DNA from: Sedimenticola thiotaurini | GTDB taxonomy: Bacteria > Pseudomonadota > Gammaproteobacteria > Chromatiales > Chromatiaceae | Assembly (NCBI GenBank): GCA_007713595.1 | Contig: VMRY01000084.1 | Location: 1-38,182 of the forward strand | DNA length: 38,182 bases | Direction of reading: 5' to 3' | Shown here: positions 13,073 to 19,544 of the stretch, in pieces | Position numbering within the stretch: the first letter of the stretch is position 1 | Layout: every line of letters begins with the position of its first letter | Position numbers and translations under genes: made by a program | Notes under the pieces: generated by a model | Database searches by the model: none | Told to the model about the DNA's origin: nothing | What the model saw: the letters and a program-made list of their open reading frames with translations, nothing else

Positions 13073-14041
13073 TTAATCGTTATGCGGCGTTTGCAGTTTA
13101 TAGATGGTTGTTCTGGAAACACCCAGCATCCGAGCTGCCCGACTGATATTCCCACCGCACTGATTGATCACCCATTGGACATAGGCCTGCTCAAGAGTGG
13201 ACAGTGTGCCAACAGAATGAAATGTTGCCAGCTGGTCTGTGGTCGCTTGATCGGAGGAGTGCCTTGTGAGCATTGCATCAATGCTCTCCCGCCTGATCTC
13301 CCCATCACAGTGCACACGAAGCCGTTCGACAATATTCTTCAACTCTCGCACATTGCCGGGCCAGTGATGCGCCTTCAACTGCTGCATGGCGTCTTCTGTG
13401 AGTGTTGGCGGTGCCACGTCACCCAAGGGCTGACCGAGGAAGTGATCAACCAATAATGGGATATCGTCTCTGCGTTGATTGAGTGGTGGGATATTGATAG
13501 TCAAAACATTCAATCGATAATAGAGATCCTGTCTAAACCGGCCCTGGGAAATCATCTTCTCCAGATCCCGGTGGGTGGCAGCAATAATGCGTGCATTGGT
13601 CCGCTTGATCTGAGTACTACCAAGCGGGCGATACTCACCCGTTTCCAAGACGCGCAGTAATTTGGCCTGACATGTAGCGGATAACTCACCAATCTCATCA
13701 AGGAACAGCGTACCTTCACTGGCGGCATGAAACAGGCCATCGTGCTCCTCTATTGCTCCCGTGAACGCTCCTTTCTTGTGGCCAAACAGTTCACTTTCAA
13801 GCAGTTGGTCCTGCAGCAAACCGCAATTCAATGGAATAATATCGGCGCGATCACGCTCACTCCAGTAGTGCAGAATCTGAGCAACCACCTCCTTTCCAAC
13901 ACCACTTTCTCCCGTAATCAGAACCGGCATCTGCAGTGGCGCCATCTTTTTAGCCATCGCAACAACCTCACACCATGGGGCACTTTTCCCTATAGCCAAG
14001 GGTTGCTCTTTCCGCTGTTTAATAGTTGCCTTTGTAAGCAT
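13073..14041 (-). CDS. sigma-54-dependent transcriptional activator lacking a sensory domain (PspF-like layout)
   Basis: Enhancer-binding protein of 322 residues consisting of an AAA+ domain and a Fis-type helix-turn-helix. Walker A GESGVGK is at 44-50, the sigma-54 contact loop GAFTGA at 91-96, Walker B TLFLDE at 111-116, and the HTH at about 296-316 (GGNISRAARMLGVSRTTIYKL). There is no N-terminal PAS, GAF, V4R or receiver domain; the AAA+ region begins within 20 residues of the start, and no coding sequence for a sensor lies just upstream. It must be controlled by a partner protein, by expression level or be constitutively active. It lies directly upstream of the promoter it probably drives. 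Confidence 0.93.
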   Translation of the reverse strand: MLTKATIKQRKEQPLAIGKSAPWCEVVAMAKKMAPLQMPVLITGESGVGKEVVAQILHYWSERDRADIIPLNCGLLQDQLLESELFGHKKGAFTGAIEEHDGLFHAASEGTLFLDEIGELSATCQAKLLRVLETGEYRPLGSTQIKRTNARIIAATHRDLEKMISQGRFRQDLYYRLNVLTINIPPLNQRRDDIPLLVDHFLGQPLGDVAPPTLTEDAMQQLKAHHWPGNVRELKNIVERLRVHCDGEIRRESIDAMLTRHSSDQATTDQLATFHSVGTLSTLEQAYVQWVINQCGGNISRAARMLGVSRTTIYKLQTPHND

Positions 14042-14321
14042 TTAGATCTGATCTCTATGCACAGCCACTGGTTCAGTAGAGCTGAGAATAGCAACAATAA
14101 ACAGACTTAGGCAAAGACTACAGAAAAATAGATGTTATGTGGCGGCCAGTAAAACAACGCTAAACCAGACACAGGCGAGTAGCAGACGATCGAGATACTT
14201 TTATTAAGGCGGGTAGAGGGGAAGGTATTTGCTACTTCTAAATCATCCCTGCCACTGATATTCAAGAGACACCATCAGTGGCGGGGATAAGAGAACAATA
14301 TTCAGTGACGTTCTATTGCAC
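14042..14321. other. intergenic region between ligase-peptidase cluster and sigma-54 activator gene
   Basis: A 280-base gap without a supported ORF. It contains the long hairpin at 14245-14288 near the end of the ATP-grasp gene. The activator promoter must lie here, but no convincing -35/-10 pair was recognised, and the base string before the activator ATG has no strong Shine-Dalgarno site. Confidence 0.4.
14245..14288 (-). terminator. long hairpin after the RimK-like gene, probable transcript end
   Basis: Arms 14245-14259 (ATCCCTGCCACTGAT) and 14274-14288 (ATCAGTGGCGGGGAT) pair over 15 positions with one wobble or mismatch, around a 14-base loop. The structure lies 34 bases past the ATP-grasp stop codon. 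No long U tract follows, so termination may be weak or the stem may protect the 3' end. Confidence 0.5.
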
Positions 14322-15806
14322 TCAGGAACGCTGATTGCTGGCAGGTGTCTTTCCTGCCTCGATACGAACCAGAAACTCTTCCATGATCTGCTCATAGAGT
14401 GCATCACCCAGAACCTGATCTTCGACACCCGAGTCGATACTGGGATTATCATTTACCTCAATAACCACAATGCCGTTCTCCGTCTCTTTCAGATCCACAC
14501 CATACAGGCCGTTGCCGATCAGATTCGCTGCCTTGAGTGCAGTATCCACCACTTTTTTTGGCGCATCGGCTACGGCAAAGGTACGGAAATCACCCTCTTT
14601 ATCCACACTGCTATGGTCATAGATCTGCCAATGATCCTTGGACATGAAGTACTGGCAGACATAGAGTGGTTTGCGGTTAATAATTCCCACTCGCCAATCA
14701 AATGGGGTATAGGTGTAGGCCTGCCCCAACAACAGATCAGAATCCTTGAACATCTTTCTTGATACCTGCTCCAGCTGCTGCCGGTTCTCCACCTTGTATA
14801 CCCCCAGGGAGAAGGATCCATCCGGCACCTTGAGGACAATGGGGTAAGCAATCTTCTCTTCCAACTCATCCAACCCACCGGAGCGAACAATCACCGTCTC
14901 AGGTGTCGAGACACGATGCAATTTCAGCAGCTCTTCCAGGTAGATCTTATTGGTACAGCGCAGGATTGAATCGGGGTCATCAATAACGACCAGCCCTTCT
15001 GATGCCGCCTTACGGGCAAACCGGTAAGTGTGGTGATCAATAGCCGTGGTCTCTCTTATGAAGAGCGCATCAAATTCACTCAGACGACCGTAGTCTTTGG
15101 GGGAGATAAGCTCGGCGTCCAGGCCATATTTTTTCGCGGCGCGGACAAATTTTTTCAACGCCTTTTGATCAGACGGTGGCATCGCTTCCTGCGGGTTTTG
15201 CAAAATAGCCAGATCGTATCGGCCCATGCGTTTCTGTCGTGGTGCCTGCCAGCGTTTACTCAGATAACCATTCAGCGCATCATCCAGCTCATCCTGCTGG
15301 TCATCAGAGAGATCCTGAACACCCAACGCCTTGATACCGGTAATGCGCCAATCGGCCTTCTTCTCGAAGAGCACTCGCATGAGTGGTGCACGAAACAGTT
15401 CAAACAGCTCCCGCGCCAATGGCTGAAAATCCTTTAACGGGGAATTTCCAAACATCATGGTTACACTGAAGGAAGTCGTCTCGACACCCTTGTGTCTCCG
15501 TCCGAGAATTCGCTGGACCTGTTTATCCAGATCCTCTGTTTCAAGTGAGTAGAGTGACTTCCGGCTCAAGTCGCGAAGCGTTCGAACAGAAGGGATAACC
15601 TTGTGGCCACGCGCCTCAGCCAGCAATGAACAGTAGTACCCTTCACCCAGGTATTTCTGAGACCGGCAGAGATTAACAATGCGTAATCCGCGCTTCTGTT
15701 GCCACACAGGGTCCTTCAGATATTCAGCCGCTGTCACTACAGGATAACTATCCACCCGCCCCTTCCAGTGACTCGCCTTTTCCACCAATAACAGATGTTC
15801 AGTCAT
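14322..15806 (-). CDS. RimK-type ATP-grasp ligase with N-terminal RLAN domain
   Basis: Predicted amide-bond-forming enzyme of 494 residues that would join an amino acid or carboxylate to a peptide or small molecule using ATP. The C-terminal half (about 270-480) is a RimK-like ATP-grasp fold: VLKVPDGSFSLGVYKV binds ATP, DWRVG is at 370-374, and GVDLK at 436-440 with E450, N452 and N454 (IEVNDNPSID) supplies Mg-ATP ligands. The first 200 residues match the layout of the RLAN domain, which is known from RimK-like proteins. RimK itself is only about 300 residues. Its start overlaps the GNAT/peptidase gene by eight bases. The substrate is unknown. Confidence 0.88.
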   Translation of the reverse strand: MTEHLLLVEKASHWKGRVDSYPVVTAAEYLKDPVWQQKRGLRIVNLCRSQKYLGEGYYCSLLAEARGHKVIPSVRTLRDLSRKSLYSLETEDLDKQVQRILGRRHKGVETTSFSVTMMFGNSPLKDFQPLARELFELFRAPLMRVLFEKKADWRITGIKALGVQDLSDDQQDELDDALNGYLSKRWQAPRQKRMGRYDLAILQNPQEAMPPSDQKALKKFVRAAKKYGLDAELISPKDYGRLSEFDALFIRETTAIDHHTYRFARKAASEGLVVIDDPDSILRCTNKIYLEELLKLHRVSTPETVIVRSGGLDELEEKIAYPIVLKVPDGSFSLGVYKVENRQQLEQVSRKMFKDSDLLLGQAYTYTPFDWRVGIINRKPLYVCQYFMSKDHWQIYDHSSVDKEGDFRTFAVADAPKKVVDTALKAANLIGNGLYGVDLKETENGIVVIEVNDNPSIDSGVEDQVLGDALYEQIMEEFLVRIEAGKTPASNQRS

Positions 15807-16920
15807 GATAAAGCACCACCATCGCCTGTAATCCTACTCGTCCATAACGCGCCATTGTCTCAAACTTCTCTTTCAAGATAGGCATATGTATCGAATCAAT
15901 TAATGTCTCCCCCTCATCGCGATCGACAAAGGGATCATTTACATAGATAAAGCTGTCATCCACACCGGTTACCACTACCCAGTGTGGTACCCGGGCCTTG
16001 TAGATCTGCCAGGAACTGATCAGCACCAGAGGAATACCTTTGCGGCTGAGGCAGTCATCGATCTCTTTAGCGGTCACACCTGAAGGGTTTATCGGCACAC
16101 CAAAAGACTGTAACTGTTCATACATATCTTCCTGAACCAGTCGCATCACCTCTTTCTTGTGCTCACTGCGCACTGAATCTCCCAGGTGGGTACCCTCCCC
16201 GGTGATGTAGACATCCACGCCAAAACCTCTATTCACAGCAGCAAGGGCCAGACCAAAAGGGCCACAACCACCATGTCCTGATGTCATGAAAATCGTCGTG
16301 GCCTCACGCCACAGACGCAGCTCAAGGCGGCGGGAAAATTGCGTTTCCGGCTTTAGCGCCTTCATCGCCATCATCAATGAAGCGGCACCGCAGGTAAACT
16401 CCAGGCTCTGCTCATAATAGGGTACAGGGGTCAGGTCAGGATGGAGATCAGGGGCCAGCGACTTCTCCAGTCGCCAGGCATCCATGTGATCTTCATAGTA
16501 ATCGACAAACTCGCCCAGGCGACGATAACCAAGTGACTCATACAATCGAATTGCAGAGTGGTTATCCTTGCGCACCTCAAGTCGCAGATAGGCACGATGA
16601 TGCGACCAGGCTTCTGTCTCAGCCTCCTTCATCAAGCTGAGCCCTATCCCCTTTCCCCGGGCATCCGGACTAACCGCAATAGAATAGAGACGAGCGACAG
16701 AGGTGGCGCGGGAGAACAGCAGAACAACATCGCCCAGGACAACGCCATTCTTTTCGGCAATCAGAATGGCTGAATTACCTTTTTTCAGCAGATAGCGGAA
16801 CTGTCGCGAAGAGATACGATCAACATCAAAACAGCGCTCTTCAAGTTCTACCAGCGTCTCCAGATCTTCAGGCCGGGCATGGCGGATTGATAAACCCGTT
16901 ACTTGGGTTTCAGTAGTCAT
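15799..16920 (-). CDS. GNAT acetyltransferase fused to C39-like cysteine peptidase
   Basis: Two-domain protein of 373 residues. Residues 10-150 are a GNAT fold with the acetyl-CoA loop SPDARGKGIG (84-93) and the tail NHSAIRLYESLGYRR. Residues 165-370 are a papain/C39-like domain with catalytic-looking C177 in FTCGAA, H313 in PHWVVVTG and D329 in VNDPF, the usual Cys-His-Asp order; Q171 may form the oxyanion hole. The start overlaps the stop of the RMD1 gene and the end overlaps the ATP-grasp gene, indicating tight coupling. No signal peptide or membrane helix is seen. Fusions of this kind next to RLAN/ATP-grasp genes are known from genome surveys, with no assigned pathway that I know of. Confidence 0.9.
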   Translation of the reverse strand: MTTETQVTGLSIRHARPEDLETLVELEERCFDVDRISSRQFRYLLKKGNSAILIAEKNGVVLGDVVLLFSRATSVARLYSIAVSPDARGKGIGLSLMKEAETEAWSHHRAYLRLEVRKDNHSAIRLYESLGYRRLGEFVDYYEDHMDAWRLEKSLAPDLHPDLTPVPYYEQSLEFTCGAASLMMAMKALKPETQFSRRLELRLWREATTIFMTSGHGGCGPFGLALAAVNRGFGVDVYITGEGTHLGDSVRSEHKKEVMRLVQEDMYEQLQSFGVPINPSGVTAKEIDDCLSRKGIPLVLISSWQIYKARVPHWVVVTGVDDSFIYVNDPFVDRDEGETLIDSIHMPILKEKFETMARYGRVGLQAMVVLYHD

Positions 16921-17705
16921 TAGGCGTGCCTGAAAAAGAGTTCATAGAGCGTCAGCACTATCTCTATCACGATAAGGATAACAATATACCATTCAACACG
17001 CAGGGTACGCCTGTCCTGCATCAAACCCAAGAGGGTTTCTGCGGTGCCACTGATCAGATCAAGTTTTCGCTCCAGCGCTATCTGGCGTTCGCCAATCTCG
17101 TACTCGTTTTCAAGCCTGCTCCAAAGACGCTCAAACTCGGGGTGCTCCCACAGCACGTCCGGCTTTTCGCCGACCTGGGCCCGCGCCACCATACGATGCT
17201 GAATCTGCAGTACTTCACCAATATGGCACAAAAGGTCATGTGCCTGCCGCGGTAGACGCCCACCAACCTGCATTCTTTTTGCCAACGGCTCAATCCGATC
17301 AAAGGCGCCAGATGCCTGTTGTTCATAGTGATCCAGCACCAGGCTTTTTCCCAGGATATCCGCAACCAGCTGCAAAACCGGCACACCCGCCACTGGAAGT
17401 ATTAATTTTCCACCATCCATCTTTTCGACAGAATCAGGCACTATCTCTATATCCAGACACTCAACGATTGGTGACGCAAAGGGTTCAGTTATATAGGGGC
17501 GCAACTGCTCAATAAAGACCCGCTCCGATGCGGCTGACACATCAAACAGCACCACCACACCAAATCGAAACAGCACGGCATAGCCAGCTCCATTTACCTC
17601 AACGATAATGGGATCGCGTGACAGGATTGTCAGATGATTGATACGGCGCAACTCGATGCCCAGGCCAACAAGGAGTGAGCGTGCCGTTGTAGTAGAGGAC
17701 AACAT
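16920..17705 (-). CDS. RMD1/DUF155-family protein with C-terminal membrane anchor
   Basis: Protein of 261 residues in the family of yeast Rmd1 and human RMND1. The marker is the strand pair GYAVLFRFGVVVLFDVSAASE near residues 42-62, followed by a helical region (about 130-235) and one terminal membrane helix (about 238-258, rich in I, V and L) with a short tail ending in FFRHA. The family protein would sit in the inner membrane with its bulk in the cytoplasm. Its last base is shared with the first base of the GNAT/peptidase gene. Bacterial members have no settled function. Confidence 0.87.
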   Translation of the reverse strand: MLSSTTTARSLLVGLGIELRRINHLTILSRDPIIVEVNGAGYAVLFRFGVVVLFDVSAASERVFIEQLRPYITEPFASPIVECLDIEIVPDSVEKMDGGKLILPVAGVPVLQLVADILGKSLVLDHYEQQASGAFDRIEPLAKRMQVGGRLPRQAHDLLCHIGEVLQIQHRMVARAQVGEKPDVLWEHPEFERLWSRLENEYEIGERQIALERKLDLISGTAETLLGLMQDRRTLRVEWYIVILIVIEIVLTLYELFFRHA

Positions 17706-17850
17706 GAGATGTACTCTCTCAGTAAATTAATAAAGCATTCGTGGATACCGCAGTACCCACATGAGACAGCTATTAGCGCTAGTCGTTACTGAAGAGAGAT
17801 ACCTCGCTCAGAAAAAGCCTTAAAGGGGTGCTGAAACAGATAGGCAAGAA

Positions 17851-18024
17851 TCAATACGCCTCATTTTCCTTGCGCTCTCTCCTGGGGCGATTCCTACCCC
17901 GGCCACGAGGGCTATCTAACGCTTCCTGCCGATTCCCTTTACGCTCATTATAGTTCCGATACTGCAACCGATAATCCAGTTCATCAAGTTCATCGACAAA
18001 CTCATTTCGCAGCCTTCTACTCAC
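17851..18024 (-). CDS. small basic protein, 57 residues, upstream of the ligase/peptidase operon
   Basis: Not recognised as a known family. The start is taken as the GTG at 18024 because AGGAG stands nine bases upstream; the same frame is open to 18129, but the extra N-terminus looks unlike a coding start. The sequence begins MSRRLRNEFVDELDELDYR, is highly charged, has a low-complexity Arg/Gly/Pro stretch (SPRGRGRNRPRR), and ends in ENEAY. It has no Cys, signal peptide or membrane helix. It is on the same strand, 145 bases before the RMD1 gene. It could be an RNA-binding protein or a substrate of the downstream enzymes; neither is shown. Confidence 0.5.
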   Translation of the reverse strand: MSRRLRNEFVDELDELDYRLQYRNYNERKGNRQEALDSPRGRGRNRPRRERKENEAY

Positions 18025-18251
18025 TTCTCTGTTCTCCTGTACTGGTAGATATAGGGTTAAAAAATCGGCGACAGATTTATACCAATCAACTATAAATAGA
18101 AAACAAAACATATTTGTCGGTTCGAGCAAAAATATTTGTTAAAAAAGTGCTTTCTGAGAGCTTCGTACAGCCTCACCATTAGCAGCATCCGGCCCACCCT
18201 GCCGTATGGGCCCTATCCAGCCAAATACATTGACACCAAAGGGAGTCACCC

Positions 18252-19544
18252 ATGTCTGAAAGTGCAAAACTGACCTACCAGGGCAAAGAGTATGATCTGC
18301 CCATAATCTTTGGCACAGAGGGCGATAACGCCATAGATATCCGCAACTTGCGAAGCCAGAGCGGCCTGATTGCCTATGATCCGGGACTTGGCAACACCGG
18401 TAGCTGTCAGAGCGACATCACCTTTATAGATGGCGACCTGGGGATTCTCCGCTATCGTGGGATTCCACTTGAGCAGTTTCAGGATAACCCGAACTTTGTT
18501 GAGGTGGCTCTGGCCCTGATCTTTGGAGAACTTCCCAACAAAGATCAGTACGCACAGTTCAGTGCCAGCCTGACAAAAAATGCCAACCTAGATGAGGACA
18601 TGAAGCATCACTTTGCCGGGTTCCCTCGCTCAGCACCTCCAATGGCCGTGCTCTCTGCCATGATCTCGACACTCTCCTGCTTCCACCCCGAGTTTCTGGA
18701 ACTGGAAGATGAAACCCAATTCGCACGGGCAGCAGCCCGACTGATTAGCAAGGTGCGAACCCTGGCGGCTTATGCCTACAGACGTTCTCTCGGCCTGCCC
18801 TCTAACTATCCCGATCCGTCGCTGCCCTATGTGTCCAACTTTCTGCACATGATGTTCTCTGAACCTTATAAGCAGTACGTCATAGAAGAGGAAGTACTTA
18901 CCGCCCTCAATCTGGTCCTCATCCTGCATGCAGACCACGAACAGAACTGCAGTACCTCCACGGTGCGGATGGTTGGCTCCAGCGGTGCAAACCTGTTTGC
19001 CTCTTGCGCGGCCGGTGTTAGCGCGCTTTGGGGACCACTGCATGGTGGTGCCAACATGGCAGTTATTGACATGCTTGAGGAGATTCACCATGGCAACATG
19101 ACGCCAGAGGCGTATGTGGCCCTGGCAAAAGACAAGGAGAGCTCGGTGAAGCTGATGGGCTTTGGGCATCGCGTCTACAGAAACTTCGACCCACGCGCCA
19201 TAATCTTGCGTGATGTGAGTGAAAAACTGCTCAAGAAACTGGGCATCAATGATCCCTTGCTGGCGATTGCCAAAAGGCTGGAAGAGATCGCTCTCAGTGA
19301 CAGTTATTTCATTGAGCGCAAACTTTATCCCAATGTGGATTTCTATAGCGGCATCATCTTACGGGCTATTGGCATCCCGACAAGCATGTTCACTGTCATC
19401 TTTGCAATAGGCCGCCTGCCCGGCTGGATCGCCCACTGGTATGAACAGCACAGCCAGGGGGGTGGCAAGATCTGGCGGCCTCGCCAGATTTACACCGGCA
19501 AGCAGGAAACCCCCTTTGTCGAAAGGACAGACAGAGGCTGGTAA
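18252..19544 (+). CDS. gltA: citrate synthase (type II)
   Basis: Condenses oxaloacetate and acetyl-CoA to citrate in the TCA cycle. At 430 residues it has the size of hexameric, NADH-sensitive gammaproteobacterial enzymes. Catalytic residues line up with the E. coli numbering: H264 in GPLHGGAN, H306 in GFGHRVYRNFDPRA, and D363 in VDFYSG; H229 in HADHEQN is also conserved. GGGAG lies about eight bases before the ATG. It appears to be monocistronic and is followed by the terminator at 19573-19604. Confidence 0.97.
   Translation: MSESAKLTYQGKEYDLPIIFGTEGDNAIDIRNLRSQSGLIAYDPGLGNTGSCQSDITFIDGDLGILRYRGIPLEQFQDNPNFVEVALALIFGELPNKDQYAQFSASLTKNANLDEDMKHHFAGFPRSAPPMAVLSAMISTLSCFHPEFLELEDETQFARAAARLISKVRTLAAYAYRRSLGLPSNYPDPSLPYVSNFLHMMFSEPYKQYVIEEEVLTALNLVLILHADHEQNCSTSTVRMVGSSGANLFASCAAGVSALWGPLHGGANMAVIDMLEEIHHGNMTPEAYVALAKDKESSVKLMGFGHRVYRNFDPRAIILRDVSEKLLKKLGINDPLLAIAKRLEEIALSDSYFIERKLYPNVDFYSGIILRAIGIPTSMFTVIFAIGRLPGWIAHWYEQHSQGGGKIWRPRQIYTGKQETPFVERTDRGW

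Follow-up and report, generated by a model that had tools for sequence, protein, structure and literature searches.

RMD1/DUF155, a putative membrane tether, is a recurrent neighbour of RLAN ATP-grasp ligases and GNAT-C39 peptidase fusions in Sedimenticola and other bacteria

Ligases of the RimK/LysX group of ATP-grasp enzymes convert a carboxylate into an acyl-phosphate and then form an amide with an amino acid; RimK, LysX and ArgX themselves act on proteins. Gene neighbourhoods in which an ATP-grasp ligase with an RLAN domain stands next to a fusion of a GNAT acetyltransferase with a DUF3335 peptidase were reportedly predicted by Iyer et al. in 2009. Here we describe such a ligase and fusion together with a third gene, encoding a membrane protein of the RMD1 (DUF155) family, at positions 14322-17705 of a stretch of 38,182 nucleotides from Sedimenticola thiotaurini (contig VMRY01000084.1; this whole stretch is the window below). 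Compared with the neighbourhoods attributed to Iyer et al., RMD1 and the DUF2817 family appear here as repeated partners. The pairing of the ligase with the GNAT-peptidase is a known prediction, and its link to RMD1 is a new result: no report of an RMD1-RLAN link was found in the literature searched, which lacks most subscription papers (Iyer et al. 2009 may contain it). Neither RLAN nor RMD1 is mentioned in PMC8939145 and PMC4431377.

The RimK-RimB system for poly-glutamylation of S6, in which the RimK ligase is opposed by a peptidase (PMC11957791), resembles the present locus in setting a RimK-type ATP-grasp ligase against a peptidase. It differs in that the ligase described here has the RLAN domain in addition and does not reach the cut-offs of the RimK families, that the peptidase here is a cysteine enzyme (M14-like elsewhere) whereas RimB is a retropepsin, and that a GNAT domain and RMD1 are added. 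In the rlo operon of Pseudomonas aeruginosa an ATP-grasp protein is encoded together with the secreted retropepsin RloA and with RloB, which has seven membrane helices and is a transglutaminase without activity (PMC12239564). Both operons combine an ATP-grasp protein, a peptidase and a membrane protein, but the families are different, and no GNAT or RMD1 is mentioned for rlo in the passages of PMC12239564 consulted. The DUF3335-GNAT fusion is described again in PMC10318531. The RloA and RloB families were absent from the Pfam matches of our three proteins, a result that does not extend to the rest of the genome, which was not searched. The combination of a GNAT with an ATP-grasp enzyme recurs in N-acetylglutaminylglutamine synthetase (TIGR03103), a family that includes ATP-grasp chemistry and has an architecture different from the locus here.

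On the side of the membrane protein, the studied relative is eukaryotic RMND1, in which the DUF155 domain, the coiled coil and the transmembrane part follow one another in this order, and for which we know of no ligase or GNAT partner. RMND1 is an inner-membrane protein of mitochondrial translation and a proposed mitoribosome tether; a figure legend names its DUF155 domain, coiled coil and transmembrane part (PMC7564844, PMC5264221). Mutations in RMND1 lead to severe mitochondrial disease, and data on its exact role are still limited according to the same sources. Bacterial RMD1 shares with it the DUF155 domain and a transmembrane part.

The three open reading frames of the locus, each confirmed by Pfam matches, are all on the minus strand and are given here in the order of transcription.

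16920..17705, minus strand: RMD1/DUF155 protein, 261 amino acids, first gene; PF02582, 108.7 bits (cut-off 27)
15799..16920, minus strand: GNAT-C39 fusion, 373 amino acids; PF11814, 280.7 bits (cut-off 25), and PF00583 (Acetyltransf_1), 64.4 bits
14322..15806, minus strand: RLAN ATP-grasp ligase, 494 amino acids; PF14401, 169.4 bits (cut-off 25), and PF08443 (RimK), 36.1 bits

An earlier sequence-only reading of this DNA had listed the same three genes, and its coordinates stand; its order does not, since RMD1 is transcribed first and leads the operon. Its domain calls (a RLAN/RimK-type ligase, a GNAT domain with a C39-like peptidase, and RMD1/DUF155) are borne out by the Pfam scores, and the overlaps of 8 and 1 bases that it had reported can be read from the junctions. 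The stop codon of RMD1 and the start codon of GNAT-C39 share one base in TAATG, and GNAT-C39 overlaps RLAN by eight bases in ATGACTGA. No further gene lies between the three in the window. Among the matches listed, the nearest named relative of the ligase, with 85% identity, is from Sedimenticola hydrogenitrophicus. A lack of conservation of the three-gene order in related genomes had been named as a refuting result; identical order and strand were found in all five other same-genus genomes fetched (G678/L313, G721/L314, G722/L319, G650/L323 and G641/L329), and in all five RMD1 and GNAT-C39 overlap by 1 or 4 bases.

To place this arrangement among other bacteria, RMD1 loci were taken from three genome samples (phylum, class and order) and 100 of them were fetched; a locus was called linked if it had an RLAN gene and/or a full GNAT-C39 gene within 3 kb of RMD1. 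The set leaves out the window's own locus, G297 and G549 (below the family cut-off), and G606, G649, G695, G720 and G630 of the order sample, in which by coordinates no RLAN gene is near RMD1; L296 and L298, where about 6 kb separate RLAN from RMD1, fall outside the definition. By this definition 28 of the 100 loci are linked (27 with RLAN, 24 with GNAT-C39, 23 with both), and they span 10 of 40 family labels: eleven loci belong to f31, seven to f1, two each to f69 and f161, and one each to f32, f223, f125, f187, f183 and f154. The gene arrangement varies. RMD1 comes first in the genus Sedimenticola, last after GNAT-C39 and RLAN in six f31 loci and in f183, f187 and f161, and after RLAN with GNAT-C39 divergent in f125 and f154. 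It is divergent from the ligase/fusion pair in genus g398 of f1, and is on the opposite strand, with a DUF2817 gene between, in five f31 loci. In the f32 genome G006 the order is GNAT-C39, DUF2817, RMD1 without RLAN, the genome's own RLAN gene lying 2.1 Mb away. The largest clusters of neighbours within two genes of RMD1 in the 100 loci are RLAN (22), GNAT (21) and DUF2817 (13); two members of the GNAT cluster (L278 and L279) are a different GNAT. These two loci are from f103, where a gene that contains two GNAT stretches and is unlike GNAT-C39 comes after RMD1 on the same strand, directly in L278 (5757-6638) and as the second gene in L279.

A quick tree was built from 101 RMD1 proteins, 30 of them marked as linked, with L096 (the same record as L313) and L306 (a cut-off RMD1) excluded. 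The tree has two deep groups of 33 and 68 rows, with 13 and 17 linked members, respectively, and the linked state needs at least eight changes on it, also when only well-supported branches are used. Within f31 both groups stand beside the enzymes (L234-L236 and L238-L240 versus L243, L244, L251, L253 and L254). Different RMD1 lineages beside the same enzymes make a working connection hard to avoid. The presence of the two families in genomes is correlated as well: RMD1, RLAN and both were found in 52, 81 and 29 of 369 genomes of the class sample (Fisher p 6e-9), in 31, 59 and 26 of 147 genomes of the order sample (p 4e-8), and in 28, 49 and 18 of 249 genomes of the phylum sample (p 3e-8). Counted by genus, the class sample has RMD1 in 42, RLAN in 71 and both in 24 of 272 genera, with 11 expected (p 4e-6). 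The recurrence of the linkage, counted by loci, by family labels and by RMD1 subfamilies alike, supports the earlier proposal that RMD1 belongs with the ligase and the GNAT-peptidase, and the lack of conservation that would have refuted it was not observed.

The view from the ligase side is different. In the phylum sample, where DUF3335 was found in 40 genomes, 37 of 42 DUF3335 matches lie within 3 kb of an RLAN match; RLAN and DUF3335 are strongly coupled. Two more DUF3335 copies, about 9 kb apart and with no RLAN match beside them, were seen at G197:C15:30144-40372. The neighbourhoods of ligases were surveyed in 80 named RLAN loci, the best of at least 582 confirmed ones, a sample rich in Pseudomonas and Dyella-type bacteria that is, as a best-match selection, biased to close relatives. 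A full GNAT-C39 gene adjoins RLAN in 47 of these 80 loci, a GNAT without the peptidase in 28, and neither in five, some of which are at contig ends; the C39 part is therefore optional, and trimming is not universal. RMD1 is near RLAN in three of the 80, from Sedimenticola hydrogenitrophicus, Methylomicrobium sp. wino1 and gamma proteobacterium HdN1. In all three RMD1, GNAT-C39 and RLAN are close together, and in the latter two DUF2817 is there too. By this survey of RLAN neighbourhoods for DUF155, which the sequence-only reading had suggested, RMD1 is a minority partner, not a general one, of RLAN ligases.

The ligase consists of the RLAN domain (residues 27-176) and a RimK-like ATP-grasp part (about residues 240-465) that aligns with the RimK structures 5zct and 4iwx over residues 241-462 (239-462 by profile). 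By sequence it is nearest to the RimK, LysX and ArgX structures, and it scores below the RimK family models (TIGR00768, 79.2 against 143.4; NF007764 (PRK10446), 29.8 against 331). K287, K326, R372, D438, E450 and N452 are invariant in all 108 rows of the RLAN alignment, which contains near-duplicates, as does the GNAT-C39 alignment of 73 rows; L168 and L261, for instance, hardly differ and could stem from a single organism. We take these residues to form the ATP and metal site, their roles being assigned from the RimK alignment and general knowledge. A degenerate ATP-grasp site had been named beforehand as a finding that would count against the locus, and the fixed residues suggest an intact one. 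A model of the RLAN N-terminal domain (predicted local distance difference test, pLDDT, 83.9, from 38 sequences) has its best fold matches in ArgX and LysX (E 2e-4, template modelling (TM) score about 0.54, root-mean-square deviation about 10). The RLAN protein is not the only such ligase of the source genome, which also encodes a separate RimK-family ligase (G000:C18:4736-5302, L001; PF08443, 232 bits).

In the fusion protein a RimI-like GNAT part (about residues 10-150) is followed by the DUF3335 C39/papain-like cysteine peptidase (166-370). Q171, which is presumably the oxyanion position, C177 and H313 are invariant in 73 of 73 rows; position 329 is Asp in 62, including the window protein, and Glu in 11 rows from f31 and f32. 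The Cys-His-Asp set C177, H313 and D329, which had been called intact, thus appears so from conservation, with either Asp or Glu as the acid. The GNAT half scores below the RimI cut-off (TIGR01575, 79.8 against 86.4 bits) and is RimI-like, not RimI; the N-terminal acetyltransferases RimI and Naa10 are among its best solved-structure matches, and for the C39 part alone no useful solved-structure match was found.

RMD1 was modelled with a beta-rich N-terminal domain and long helices (AlphaFold2, pLDDT 72.3, from 4 sequences). A single C-terminal membrane helix is predicted at about residues 236-258, with the hydropathy maximum in the stretch that starts at residue 240 and a local pLDDT of about 48-56. 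Residues that are invariant or nearly so in 102 rows are G49, E128, P182, W186, R207, E238, L244 and E248. Since these are few and none forms an obvious catalytic set, a tether is likelier than an enzyme. No solved-structure match was obtained with the single sequence or with profiles (best E 0.16 or worse). The best Foldseek match of the model is human MRS2 (E 1.9e-3, TM 0.35), with CorA lower and TBP scoring nearly equal. Kinship with CorA/MRS2 was considered as a weak lead and set aside: no Foldseek match reached E 0.001 or below, and RMD1 has neither the GMN motif nor the second membrane helix of the channels. A profile comparison of RMD1 with a CorA-like protein of Pseudomonas likewise gave a probability of 1.3%.

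Partner kinds missed by the sequence-only reading are DUF2817, which is M14-like, and, in one family, GCS2 with FGase. The gene in the gaps of the linked loci is DUF2817 (PF10994; 355 bits for L168), with the motifs HGVE (HxxE), NRN, DxH and LEFGT invariant in 19 of 19 sequences; we take these to be the active site of a zinc carboxypeptidase (M14-like). DUF2817 occurs in 6 of 20 genomes, all chosen for RMD1, as a single copy and always at a distance of no more than about 3 kb from RLAN and/or GNAT-C39. The same model found no DUF2817 in nine genomes from the genus of the window, of which two are less than 80% complete, and no useful solved-structure match of DUF2817 was obtained. In f69 the genes after the ligase of L267 encode a GCS2 ligase (PF04107, 104.6 bits) and an FGase hydrolase (PF05013, 83.8 bits), and L272 has open reading frames homologous to them; RMD1 is on the other strand next to GCS2/FGase, and an ABC-F gene lies upstream of RMD1 (7902-9725 in L267, NF000355 above the cut-off; a homologous open reading frame in L272). 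RMD1 is also directly downstream of EttA in L277 (2515-4179; an equivalog match of 998 bits) and, in L301 and L302, which like L277 belong to f186, of same-length ABC open reading frames homologous to EttA. The gene just after RLAN belongs to the CorA family in 17 loci of Pseudomonas (L103, L107, L108, L109, L111, L112, L113, L115, L118, L122, L123, L127, L129, L132, L137, L166 and L173), and L120 has a cut-off copy. The signature of these Pseudomonas proteins is GGMS, versus YGMN in two canonical CorA-like matches of other loci. The protein is possibly a non-channel CorA relative that serves as a membrane partner.

We consider it reasonably probable that the three genes are one working unit, a reversible peptide-bond module at the inner membrane with RMD1 as its tether, because the site residues are intact, the coupling is tight within the genus and the linkage recurs in ten family labels. 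Such a module probably adds and removes amino acids on some target. The ligase would use ATP to form an acyl-phosphate on an acceptor carboxylate, either the C-terminus of a peptide or protein or a Glu side chain, and would then add one or more amino acids to the acceptor. RimI-like GNATs acetylate alpha-amino groups, and the GNAT domain could acetylate the amino end of the acceptor or of the product. Enzymes of the C39 and M14 families cut peptide or isopeptide bonds; the C39-like peptidase, and the M14-like DUF2817 where present, may remove the added residues. RMD1 would be non-catalytic and tether to the membrane either the enzymes or what they act on. Candidate acceptors are of two kinds: small N-acyl peptides, and proteins of the ribosome or elsewhere.

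Several observations weigh against a module of this composition. Most RMD1 loci (72 of 100) are unlinked, and 77 of the 80 RLAN loci show no RMD1 within the stretch surveyed, so that RMD1 has other contexts and is not needed by every RLAN system. The 28 linked loci are far from independent: 18 come from two families, and on the RMD1 tree the linked state is clustered (8 changes, as against 26 on average after shuffling), so a single origin is common to many of them. The co-occurrence tests ignore kinship above the genus, and the three samples share some genomes. The peptidase is missing beside RLAN in the 28 loci with GNAT alone and the five with neither, Glu stands in for Asp as the acid of the triad in 11 of 73 fusion proteins, and the f69 ligase sits with GCS2 and FGase, with no GNAT-C39 within the stretch.

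The composition of the f69 locus favours a small molecule over a protein as the target, since GCS2 and FGase stand there in place of GNAT-C39; these families include small-molecule ligases and N-acyl-glutamate hydrolases. A real though lesser possibility is accordingly that the module makes and recycles a short N-acetylated peptide, which may be a compatible solute, with N-acetylglutaminylglutamine amide and N-acetyl-aspartyl-glutamate as models, and that RMD1 or another membrane protein acts as sensor or release gate. The CorA-family membrane gene behind RLAN in Pseudomonas fits this, as does a match of the fusion protein's GNAT to model positions 81-218 of TIGR03103, whose 42.3 bits are far below the cut-off of 569. 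On the other hand, the sequences nearest to the ligase are those of protein-acting enzymes, RimI is the family model closest to the GNAT and also, like Naa10, one of its best matches to solved structures, and the studied RMD1 relative is a mitoribosome factor. The same kinships would suit a target on the ribosome: RimK acts on S6, RimI on S18 and RMND1 is the proposed mitoribosome tether, and RMD1 follows EttA or its homologues in f186 and ABC-F genes in f69. It could be that RMD1 tethers ribosomes and that a protein of the ribosome, or one bound to it, is modified next to the membrane by the ligase, GNAT and peptidase. We regard this as only slightly less likely than the small-peptide reading. 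Against it, the EttA neighbourhood comes from a single family label, the relation of RMD1 to RMND1 is candidate orthology only, RimK and RimI have relatives that work away from ribosomes too, the separate RimK-family match already present in the source genome has 232 bits, and the GCS2/FGase partners do not fit.

That RMD1 is in the operon by chance and works elsewhere would agree with the many unlinked RMD1 loci, with its rarity beside RLAN among the 80 best loci surveyed and with the clustering of linked loci on the tree. It is nevertheless very unlikely, as recurrent linkage in ten family labels of genomes of 2-5 Mb, in varied orders and orientations and with two RMD1 subfamilies that both occur within f31, makes chance hard to credit. 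Least credible is a graspetide-like peptide natural-product locus or an anti-phage locus, suggested by the ATP-grasp ligases that make graspetides and by the graspetide ligase PsnB among the Foldseek matches of the RLAN N-terminal model. RLAN and GNAT are kept paired across many families, PADLOC-DB gave 0 families for the three proteins and DUF2817, and no other gene lies between the three in the window, where no search aimed at precursor peptides was made.

Around the three genes, a citrate synthase gene is divergent from RMD1, and one small open reading frame is doubtful.

17851..18129, minus strand: doubtful open reading frame of 92 amino acids with a TTG start, between citrate synthase and RMD1; no Pfam match

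A similar translated stretch is found in the corresponding place in L096, L319 and L329 (41-44% identity) and in L323, and no counterpart was found in L314 at E 1e-5. The frame was initially accepted as a conserved gene; this was weakened by the copy in L323, the closest relative, where a stop and a change of frame interrupt it, so the frame may not be a gene, and it is not established as a gene or an operon member. A sigma-54 activator (13073-14041) was considered as a member of the operon and rejected: it adjoins RLAN in L323 and is absent from the other four same-genus stretches. A different sigma-54 activator follows RLAN in the Pseudomonas locus L106. An Rfam scan of 13900-18400 gave nothing, and promoter and terminator scans were near chance (7 found versus 4.2 expected, and 5 versus 3.7).

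With RLAN, GNAT-peptidase and M14-like peptidase as its bacterial genetic partners, DUF155 acquires a specific setting in which it can be tested, and RLAN ligases gain a membrane partner and two kinds of peptidase with which they can be assayed jointly. We speculate, as an unlikely case, that RMD1 in bacteria tethers to the membrane a RimK/RimI-like machine by which residues are added to ribosomal or ribosome-bound proteins, capped and removed. If this is true, RMND1 would descend from, or parallel, a subunit of a bacterial membrane-linked ribosome-tailing system.

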